Assembly: GCA_964036195.1 (NCBI GenBank)
Contig: OZ038450.1
Span: 3,412,701-3,476,700 of the forward strand
From: Sphaerolaimus hirsutus
Taxonomy: Eukaryota; Nematoda; Chromadorea; Monhysterida; Sphaerolaimidae
Reading direction: 5' to 3'
DNA: 64,000 nt
Shown one piece after another: positions 18,701 to 20,996 of the stretch. The notes below the pieces were generated by a model. That model searched no databases. It was given only the letters and a program-made list of their open reading frames with translations, and was not told the DNA's origin. Both the position numbers and the translations under genes were made by a program. Positions within the stretch are counted from its first letter, which is position 1. Every line of letters starts with the position of its first letter.

Positions 18701-20996
18701 GGAAAAAGTAGGTTTGCGCCAAACAAATTTTTACCATGAATGCTTTTTGTTGTATTTATTTGCGATAGGGCAATGGATCTCCAAGCCAAACAAGTGCACC
18801 TCAGAAACTGACCTTGTGTTTCACAGGAATAAACAAATAATATTGCTGCAACTTTTCCACAGTGTGATATTTTGAGTGTACCTCCAACTTGACGGGATCA
18901 ATTAAACAGGCTCGTTGCAACTTTGCCACTTTATTTGTCATTGTAGCGGAAAATAGAAAAGTTCTACGATCCTTGGGCACAACTTTGAGGATTTTGTCTA
19001 CTTCAGGTTCGAAATCCATGTTCAGGATTCTATCAGCCTCATCCATGACCAGAAATTTTAGGGATTTTAGATTGAAACCTTTCGTGTTTTCTAAGTGGTC
19101 CACCAGGCGGCCAGGGGTGGCTGTGTGATTGGAGGAAATGTTATATTTGGAAAAAGAGTGGGTCATTTTTTCTTTTTGTAGATTTGATAAGCAGTGAAAA
19201 TTGAGGCATTGTGTAATTTTCGTATTAAATATGAAGTAATTATTCTATATCAATTCAGTTTTAGGTATACCATTTAAAAATTCGCTTTCTGATAAAATCA
19301 AATAAACATTGGTAAGTTCACAAAGTTAAACAACATTTTTCAGTTGTAAATATGTCCGCTCACGGTAGTCAGAATTCGTTGGCCTAAAATGTATTTATGT
19401 CAGAACCCTGCTCTGGGGACAAACGAATTTAGAGTGACTCGACTACATCAAAATAGATATAATATAAATAAATAAATAACATATTTTATACAAAATAGAT
19501 TTTACATTATCGATTCATCAAGATCCCAAAAACCCACGTGCCTATGATAACGTGTGGTTTCTTGCCCAACGCCAACTGCTGGGTGCCCATATCGATGCCG
19601 CCCACGATCACAGCTGGAATGACGGAAAATCGTCTGCAAATCACTATGAAATCTGGCTCTACAGACAAAACGTGTTGTACGCGACAAAGAATGACAAAAT
19701 TACTGTTGAAAAACTAATCGCTGACAAATTTCACAGCAGACAAAAAACATATTCAAAGAACAACAAATCTCTTTAACCCCCCCCCCCCAGAAACGCACCC
19801 ACTTTGACGCCAATTCCCGATCCCAGCGCTTCAAACTGTTCAGCAATTTGAAAACTGAGCTCCCTGGTGGGCGCCAACACCAGGAAGCAATCCCAGACCC
19901 TGTAAAATGTCCTGTAAAACGTAAAATGTCATGCAAAGTGTCAAAAGTCATGTAAAATGCCCTCGAAATGGCAACTCGGTTGCCATTTCGCAGGGCACTT
20001 TACATGACTTTTGACACTTTGCATGACATTTGACATTTTACAGGGCACTTTACAGGGTCTGGGATTTGCACCAGCGCAAACAACCTCTGCTGCACCTCCA
20101 AAAGCGCGTGCAGTATAGGCAGCGCGAAGGCGGCCGTTTTTCCGCTGCCAGTTTCGGCTACGCCTATCACATCCCGTCCGGAAAGTGCGACCAGGGGGCA
20201 GTCCCATACCCTGTAAAATGCCCTGTAAAATGTCAAATGTTATGCAAAGTGTCTAAAGTCATGGAAAATGCCCTGGAAAAAGGAATTTTGTTTTGACATT
20301 TTACATGACTTTAGACACTTTGCATGACACTTGAGATTTAAATTACAGAGCCTTTTACAGGGTGTGGGAGTGGCACCGGAATTGATTGCAACTGCATCGG
20401 GGTGGGACCGTTCCACGATAAGCGGGCGCACGCGTCGCACAAAGGCGCCGCTAGGCCCTGCAGATTTTGGACGGTGATTTTTTTAAAAATGACTCTCATT
20501 CTGACTTTTTCGGTAAAATACACCATACCAATTGAAGGGTAAAGTGAAGAGTGAAAAGTAAAGTAAAGAGCGATGAGTAACGGCCAACGAGACTGATTTG
20601 AAAAATACAGTAAAAGGTATAATTTAAAAAACAAACATTTTATCGCTATTTTCCATTTGTCCCTTTACTCTTTACTTATCACTCTTATCATCTACTCTTC
20701 GTTACTCTTTACTTGCCATTGTCACTTGCTCCTACGTTTTACTCTGTACTTTATCACTTGTGGAACTGGCCCCTACACAACTGAATTAGCTTCAACACAA
20801 AGCTAACCAATTGCTCAAAACTCTGACTGGCCCCAGGGCCAATTTCATCACCATCCCCATTCGCCTCAACATCCGCGTTCACACAGGCGGCGGGTGGCTC
20901 GATGCCGACCTCGCCGGGGTCGTCGTCGCTGCTCGAACTGGACTCGTCGATGTTGCGCTTGGCCGGACGCTTTTTCTTGTCGTTGTGTGGCTTCAT
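15762..20996 (-). CDS. DDX47: DEAD-box ATP-dependent RNA helicase DDX47 (yeast Rrp3)
   Basis: Nucleolar helicase of pre-rRNA processing and small-subunit assembly. Exons (minus): 20996-20808, 20457-20377, 20191-20072, 19880-19799, 19613-19542, 19120-18813, 18187-18041, 17364-17156, 16685-16556, 15932-15762; phases agree, about 502 residues (human about 455). Motifs in order: I AETGSGKT, Ia APTREL, Ib TPGR, II DEAD in [40 protein letters not shown]. An acidic-serine N-terminus (SSSSSDDD) and a Lys/Arg-rich tail flank the core. Close match to DDX47 throughout ([26 protein letters not shown] [10 protein letters not shown]) separates it from other DEAD-box families. Introns 2 and 3 are introner-like MITEs ending in TG. 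Intron 5 has a GC donor (ATAG then GCACGT). The other seven introns are GT-AG. Confidence 0.95.
16479..16545. repeat. 23-bp tandem repeat, about three copies
   Basis: The motif CCGTACCGTTTACCGCAAGA is repeated head to tail in the last intron of DDX47, immediately downstream (gene sense) of the exon at 16556-16685. Confidence 0.75.
16727..16882. mobile_element. MITE with ACACGCTAGTTGACA ends, in DDX47 intron 8
   Basis: GCCCACACACGCTAGTTGAC at the left mirrors TTTAACTAGCGTCTGTGGGC at the right. Flanking CAAAG on both sides may be the target duplication. Same family as 13161. Confidence 0.65.
17543..17750 (-). mobile_element. MITE with introner-like termini (CAAGTG family), in DDX47 intron 7
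   Basis: In gene sense it reads CAG, then GTGCAAGTGGAAAAG at the left end, GGAACTGGCCC at the right end, then CAG. The terminal layout matches the introner family (GTGC start, GCCC end, CWG duplication) but the interior, built of AAGTTAAGAGTTAA units, is different. It sits inside a larger intron. Confidence 0.65.
18312..18500. mobile_element. hAT-like GCGCC MITE in DDX47 intron 6
   Basis: TAGTGGTGTAAAA at the left, TTTTTTATATCCCCA at the right, flanked by 8-bp GTCCGTAC and GTCCATAC. The interior has degraded GCGCC palindromes. Confidence 0.65.
19881..20071 (-). mobile_element. Introner-like MITE forming DDX47 intron 3 (CTG/CTG)
   Basis: Exon 3 ends TTTGCGCTG, the element runs GTGCAAATCCCAGACCC to GGGATTGCTTC, then CTG and exon 4 GTGTTGGCG. 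The join restores [11 protein letters not shown], conserved in DDX47 proteins. No AG in the right place would keep the frame; the intron ends in TG. The interior is a near-perfect hairpin of about 90-bp arms. Confidence 0.9.
20192..20376 (-). mobile_element. Introner-like MITE forming DDX47 intron 2 (CCG/CTG)
   Basis: Exon 2 ends CAATCAATTCCG, the element runs GTGCCACTCCCACACCC to GGGACTGCCCC, then CTG and exon 3 GTCGCACTT. The join gives [12 protein letters not shown], aligning residue for residue with the family (IPLALQGRDIIG in human). The left triplet is CCG rather than CTG. The acceptor is TG. Confidence 0.9.

Follow-up and report, generated by a model that had tools for sequence, protein, structure and literature searches.

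The window analysed here is a stretch of 64,000 nucleotides from the nematode Sphaerolaimus hirsutus (GenBank assembly GCA_964036195.1, contig OZ038450.1, positions 3,412,701 to 3,476,700). It holds the genes for DDX47 and SF3B1 and seven introns bounded by the ends of one repeated element. The features that matter most are listed below; in pairs of triplets such as CTG/CTG, the copy in the preceding exon comes first and the copy at the intron end second.

15762..20996, minus strand: DDX47 (DEAD-box RNA helicase) gene, ATG at 20996 and stop near 15762, from spliced alignment, the joined translation and PDB 3ber
20376-20192, minus strand: DDX47 element intron 1, 185 nt, exon ATTCCG, intron GTGCCACTCCC...GGGACTGCCCCCTG, exon GTCGCA, ends GT...TG
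20071-19881, minus strand: DDX47 element intron 2, 191 nt, exon GCGCTG, intron GTGCAAATCCC...GGGATTGCTTCCTG, exon GTGTTG, ends GT...TG, CTG/CTG
13522..13716, minus strand: element intron, CTG/CTG, between GRLVCL and ERVPLCRRCPNQQICPFA, codon model weak
7839..8906, minus strand: element-bounded insertion, 1068 nt, CTG/CTG, phase 2, between CRQLNFVISTARHV and WPATRYHLHF
6830..7183, minus strand: element intron, CAG/CAG, codon model weak on the left side
6531..6724, minus strand: element intron, exon copy CTG, intron end CAG
3560..3994, minus strand: element intron, a nested or expanded copy of the family, CAG/CAG

The DDX47 gene was aligned with three proteins (from Plectus, Ixodes, and Mastomys) by spliced alignment that gave GT and AG a mild bonus. 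The best alignment, with P0004, gave exons without a premature stop or frame break across the gene. A dead DDX47 duplicate was rejected as unlikely, because the gene is intact along its whole length. The spliced alignment places the element junctions at SIP/VALSGRD and, for the second, in a run of 11 protein letters not shown here. It was found that human DDX47 (PDB 3ber) aligns with the joined window protein without a gap over both junctions. A sequence-only reading of this window had claimed that the junction residues align one-for-one with the family, and the gap-free alignment to animal DDX47 bears this out. Shared bases permit the junctions to be shifted by a few positions, but an AG end arises from none of these shifts, and the sole placement with a usual donor is GT...TG. 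Without the GT/AG bonus, the border of intron 2 moves 4 bases earlier while the length is unchanged. The same reading had CTG duplicated in both introns, which is true of intron 2 and not of intron 1, whose intron copy is CTG and exon copy CCG. Its statement that no nearby AG keeps the frame fails for intron 2, where an AG lying 21 nt inside the next exon is in frame; the use of this AG would remove VLAPTRE.

The ordinary introns of DDX47 comprise six GT-AG introns and one GC-AG intron, a tally that rests on the alignment to P0004 with the mild GT/AG bonus and from which the two other proteins differ near the ends. The intron at 19541-19121 (minus strand), before ATPGRL, has GC-AG and not GT-AG as its best-aligned border. 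In SF3B1, all 12 introns are GT-AG with the mild bonus; without it the borders wander, and GT-AG is among the equal placements in five of the 12. No transcript of this species was seen among the best 120 listed DDX47 matches, of which the top identity is 77%. In a DDX47 tree of 26 rows, with three nematodes and no tunicate, the window sequence lies on a long branch outside the nematodes, a placement flagged as unsure.

The ends of all seven element introns in the window were resolved. Four end in CTG (7839-8906, 13522-13716, and both in DDX47) and three in CAG (3560-3994, 6531-6724, and 6830-7183), confirming the earlier count of four TG ends in seven. The codon model backs coding flanks on either side in five of the seven and is weak for 6830-7183 and 13522-13716. 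The flanks of 13522..13716 presumably represent the end of an endonuclease III-like protein, and the gene holding 7839..8906 is taken to be F-box-like. The intron at 6531..6724 is read as a copy of the converted kind (CTG to CAG) described below. Repeats of other kinds also occur in the window. At 57336-61704 (plus strand) there are long open frames of an LTR-type retroelement, one of them with a PNMA-like domain match; a later frame presumably includes a reverse-transcriptase-like stretch. An inverted repeat at 53445-53656 and 53756-53967, with 212-nt arms that are 99% complementary and 99 nt apart, is a fold-back element of another kind. An inverted pair of 389 nt (36081-36469 and 51580-51968, 15 kb apart) is 92% complementary and rich in G runs, and a tandem array with a 17-nt unit occupies 11892-12120.

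Is this element common in the genome? In the 348-Mb assembly, CTG followed by GTGCCAGTCCCAGACCCTG was found as 587 exact 22-mers and CAG followed by GTGCCAGTCCCAGACCCTG as 686; these counts take in copies outside genes, and an element such as L005, whose two ends both read GTGCC, may fall into both classes. As a control, the element-end pattern read backwards gave 0 matches in the same 348 Mb, so the counts exceed chance. L005, L152, and L153 are symmetric copies with GTGCC at both ends, either of which could be the donor. Across the studied loci, the consensus of the ends is GTGCCAGTCCCAGACCCTGTAAAATG... and ...CATTTTACAGGGTCTGGGACTGCCCC, which mirror each other as inverted repeats at all positions but 2 and 4; there the end that comes first in the gene direction has GT.C and its partner, read inward, GG.G. 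The 5′ end, including its GT, is fixed by the search pattern in these sets and is not independent evidence. Among loci picked by similarity, a central GT-ended copy is present in 23 of 27, in a listing that shows only GT-first copies. Element introns have median lengths of 182 to 190 nt. They are flanked by CTG or CAG, and C is preferred ahead of this triplet and G behind it. Of the two strands of this C-CWG-G site, one gives CAG and the other CTG.

The main sample consists of 100 loci with an exact left end, namely the first 50 listed of the 587 and of the 686, all on contig C1. The two triplets match in 29 (CTG..CTG) plus 37 (CAG..CAG) of the 100 loci, as a target-site duplication predicts; 11 loci have no right end found and nine have another triplet (one of them TAG, ending in AG). 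Duplicate loci were kept in this tally and in the frame, direction, and identity tests, while three were removed for the counts of triplet changes, neighbouring Ts, and the AG at −19. Of the 89 copies in which a right end was found, 32 have a coding signal in the same frame on both sides. Many similar copies thus sit in coding sequence as introns, as introners do. It was also found that L023 and L025, a nearly identical pair of Srx-type receptor genes separated by about 16 kb, carry an element (168 and 196 nt) at the same codon; since the position is shared, the insertion probably predates the gene duplication.

For the frame test, a codon model was trained on the SF3B1 and DDX47 exons of the window, and the best frame was chosen independently on each side of the element. 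With 60-nt windows and a score of 3, all 11 scorable CTG/CTG copies out of 29 have frames consistent with exact excision, and with 90-nt windows 12 of 12 scorable out of 29 do. At 60 nt the agreement is eight of eight at a threshold of 5 and 17 of 24 without a threshold, versus 2 and 5 for the other frames. The CAG/CAG copies agree in 13 of 15 and 14 of 15 scorable out of 37. Scorable copies are mostly in phase 0. A simpler test by stop codons only gave no clear outcome. Fourteen joined CTG/CTG peptides, picked for open flanks, were then scanned against Pfam. In seven (L014, L023, L027, L029, L040, L042, and L043) a domain runs across the junction, and the other seven matched no Pfam family. 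The junction-spanning domains are Srx receptor, E1 dehydrogenase, Xan_ur_permease, Rcd1, Sugar_tr, Oscp1, and Calpain_III, of which the E1 dehydrogenase and Calpain_III scores barely exceed the cut-off. L023 matches nematode-type Srx receptors, and the joined peptide of L040 aligns with human CNOT9 over 176 residues without a gap. L042 is a sugar transporter, and OSCP1 is represented by L014 and by a CAG/CAG copy, L087, the two possibly lying in a single gene. By the frames, CNOT9, DDX47, and the seven domains, removal of the element restores the ancestral coding sequence, again as in introners.

What happens to the triplet at the intron end over time? In the following counts, a right end was called CAG or CTG with a tolerance of up to 2 nt in its position. 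Among 44 left-CTG copies with a right end, the intron copy is CTG in 28, CAG in 12, and another triplet in four, and CCG or CGG was found in none of the 44. Among left-CAG copies it is CAG in 36, CTG in two, and another triplet in four. The change from CTG to CAG (12/40) is thus more frequent than the reverse (2/38; p 0.0066), and with zero end shift allowed the four classes hold 27, 9, 33, and 1 copies (p 0.014). For comparison, the neighbouring Ts within the final 25 nt of the element were tallied in the same 40 left-CTG copies, with 13 changes to A and 24 to C or G. The terminal T has changed to A 12 times and to C or G never (12:0 versus 13:24, p 8.6e-5; without end shift 9:0 versus 13:24, p 0.00045). 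In a second sample of 20 CTG loci on contig C1, tallied by hand, with six loci lacking a right end and the duplicates in four pairs removed by eye, five CTG, three CAG, one AAG, and one CAT were found, which is the same trend. The terminal A of CAG copies has changed in two of 38 versus 26 of 152 neighbouring As, a trend with p 0.075. The 23 similarity-picked copies (10 CTG/CTG, 7 CAG/CAG, 2 CTG/CAG, 1 CAG/CTG, 1 TTG/CTG, and 2 in which both ends have GT) are too small a set to reveal an asymmetry and show none clearly, with CTG to CAG in two of 12 and CAG to CTG in one of eight. One locus, L078, shows the reverse of the usual change, with CAG in the exon, CTG at the intron end, and coding flanks open on both sides.

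Because the terminal T changes to A only, never to C or G, while its neighbours differ, the pattern fits a triplet that acts as a used 3′ splice site with the preference AG > TG >> other. Copies that have converted lie further from the consensus than those that have not (median gapped identity 0.83 versus 0.90, one-sided p 0.031), while no difference in age appeared by a cruder ungapped measure of divergence (p 0.30). With age, TG copies seem to be turning into AG copies. The base after the intron is G in 25 of 28 TG-ended copies versus 19 of 36 AG-ended copies (p 0.0024), and a TG 3′ end may need the better neighbouring base.

The sequence-only reading had offered two options, a spliceosome that accepts TG and removal in another way. 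The frames, the domain continuity, the bias for the GT-first direction, and above all the terminal-base pattern favour the first, with TG as a U2-type 3′ splice site. Of the 50 left-CTG loci 29 end in CTG, as do four of the seven introns in the window, and so lack the canonical terminal AG of that type. The structure of the element, its target, the frame-keeping removal, and the directional substitution can be read from the DNA itself, and from them I infer splicing and its machinery. It is thus probable that this is a spliceosomal introner family whose acceptor comes from the CWG target and in which TG is tolerated and replaced by AG over time.

Is there a candidate factor for the use of TG? 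A dependence on a diverged second U2AF1, as in Fritillaria borealis, would refine this reading rather than oppose it, and I regard it as rather unlikely. Two U2AF1 loci were found (matches L129-L135). One is conserved (C14:3032343-3038007, with matches of near-equal score at C720:101293-108657 on a small contig). The other is diverged (C16:15183255-15191469), with U2AF1-type zinc-finger residues kept, as judged by eye, and a changed RRM; over residues 75-116 its identity to the human protein is 45%, versus 79% for the C14 locus. In F. borealis, divergent U2AF1/2 paralogues recognise non-canonical 3′ ends, while U2AF1 is duplicated elsewhere too, as U2AF1L4 in mammals (PMC13326754). U2AF2 appears to be single here; three further weak matches resemble other RRM proteins. 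The U2AF1 duplication is a lead, not evidence, for TG use. A search of the genome for U12 snRNA gave no match, and its control likewise gave none. The GTGCC start is, I assume, unlike a minor-type donor.

For the second option, removal in another way, the mechanism considered here is that the hairpin pairs the triplets and some activity cuts between the direct repeats, the terminal bases being irrelevant. The hairpins that would join the ends are indeed very stable (−91.7 kcal/mol with z −12.7 for DDX47 intron 1, and −145.6 kcal/mol with z −24.1 for intron 2), and direct repeats lie at both ends. In both DDX47 hairpins, the first GU and the final CUG are outside the stem, and the internal GTAAAA and TTTTACAG sites are within it. 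So tight a hairpin should hinder access to the branch site, which counts against the spliceosomal reading. A similar non-spliceosomal removal of hairpin introns has been suggested in euglenids. As far as the Amoebophrya report describes them, its non-canonical introns have inverted and direct repeats and no fixed splice motif, and its authors suggest an activity cutting between direct repeats (PMC7789003). Introns of that type have no fixed terminal dinucleotides, while here 78 of the 86 copies that have a right end, duplicates removed, carry CAG or CTG as their 3′ triplet. The terminal base is constrained in a way that such cutting would not require, with T going to A and no C or G seen. The coding flanks also favour one direction: at the strongest scores (15 or more) 22 of 25 are GT-first and three opposite (p 7.8e-5), and at scores of 10 or more 34 are GT-first and nine opposite, of 43. 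L029, listed as an exception in direction, reads GT-first by its Pfam match. Since the sampled ordinary introns are GT-AG as well, non-spliceosomal removal is improbable.

No more probable is it that CTG copies are spliced at ordinary AGs, either the internal TTTTACAG sites at −19 and −31 or exonic ones, giving altered proteins, or that they are retained in poorly expressed alleles. The −19 AG is kept in 27 of 28 CTG/CTG copies, a presence favoured by the method of finding right ends, and not kept significantly better than in CAG/CAG copies (32/36, p 0.38). At least one in-frame AG within −40..+30 exists in 11 of the 28. However, splicing at −19 or −31 would put the reading frame out by one, which was the case in none of the 11 scorable copies of the frame test, and internal CAGs as the main splice form were rejected for this reason. 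The remaining 17 of the 28 have no in-frame AG within −40..+30, and an exonic AG would cost conserved residues in CNOT9, OSCP1, and DDX47 intron 2. The T-to-A pattern at the terminal base would also be left unexplained.

Under the favoured reading of a spliceosomal introner family, the following course is proposed. A MITE-like element with near-perfect inverted repeats would insert at CWG, preferably C-CWG-G, and duplicate the triplet. Its two ends would supply a 5′ splice site, GTGCC, in place of the GGGGC expected from a perfect inverted repeat, and, on the 3′ side, the C-rich GCCCC. The duplicated triplet would then form the final three bases of the intron, so that CAG yields a GT-AG intron and CTG a GT-TG intron, and a U2-type spliceosome may excise both kinds exactly and leave the protein unchanged. 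TG would be functional but inferior, with the intron CTG mutating to CAG under selection and other changes not tolerated. The whole-intron hairpin may join the ends and bury the internal donor- and acceptor-like sites. The −19 AG is suspected to serve early recognition and the terminal WG exon ligation; the human rule that TG stands beside an AG may then hold here through the −19 AG.

How does this compare with known introners? Introners with GT-TG ends are already known in Micromonas CCMP1545, where Verhelst et al. (2013) described IE-B (25 members) and IE-D (6 members); eight IE-B members with a long ORF, lengths up to 6,494 nt, and a preference for phase 2 are also given (PMC3879977). The likeness lies in repeated introner introns with GT-TG ends. 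However, Micromonas is a green alga with 25 + 6 members, and a CWG target triplet is not described in the section of that paper on them (PMC3879977). The present family lives in an animal; its exact ends run to hundreds, its copies form MITE hairpins, the scorable ones are mostly in phase 0, and the target decides between AG and TG. The case presented is an animal MITE family, not the first GT-TG introner, and no animal introner family with TG ends was found among the matches listed from open-licence papers. Gozashti et al. (2022) traced introners to DNA transposons and reported introners in only two animal groups (PMC9860276). Those introners likewise have terminal inverted repeats, a target-site duplication, and one splice site carried by the element with the other taken from the duplicated target; as rare 5′ sites the paper gives GC and GA, and in the part concerned it does not give TG 3′ ends, which occur here (PMC9860276).

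In Fritillaria borealis, Soo et al. (2026) found mainly AG/AC and AG/AT ends and 5% canonical introns (PMC13326754). It resembles the present case as an animal with U2AF1 duplicated and with a triplet (YAY) that often precedes the 5′ site and recurs as the final three bases of the intron (PMC13326754). The nematode introns differ in their GT 5′ end and CWG triplet, and the ordinary introns of two sampled genes are canonical. Human TG 3′ sites, such as that of GNAS intron 3, are very rare and, in the account of Szafranski et al. (2007), always alternative to an AG within 28 nt; there TG was never reported as a sole 3′ site, and mutants from AG to TG activate other AGs (PMC2374985). They share with the nematode sites TG at a 3′ splice site of the U2 type, a probable one here, with a pyrimidine at −3 and a purine at +1 (PMC2374985). 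Here, in contrast, TG is apparently the sole frame-keeping end within −40..+30 in those 17 CTG/CTG copies.

The broadest statement would be that in an animal the spliceosome accepts TG as the only and constitutive 3′ end for hundreds of introns born from transposons, a single family giving matched GT-AG and GT-TG introns solely by the strand of CWG that faces the gene, with TG ripening to AG and a diverged U2AF1 as a candidate factor; I consider this evenly poised between right and wrong. The family is a natural experiment on the AG rule, with the same intron at the same kind of site ending in AG or TG according to the target strand, and its AG- and TG-ended copies allow splicing to be compared inside one genome. 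From the apparent change of TG into AG one can see how good splice sites arise in a new intron. Should it be borne out, the case would contradict the rule from human data that TG is never the sole 3′ splice site.
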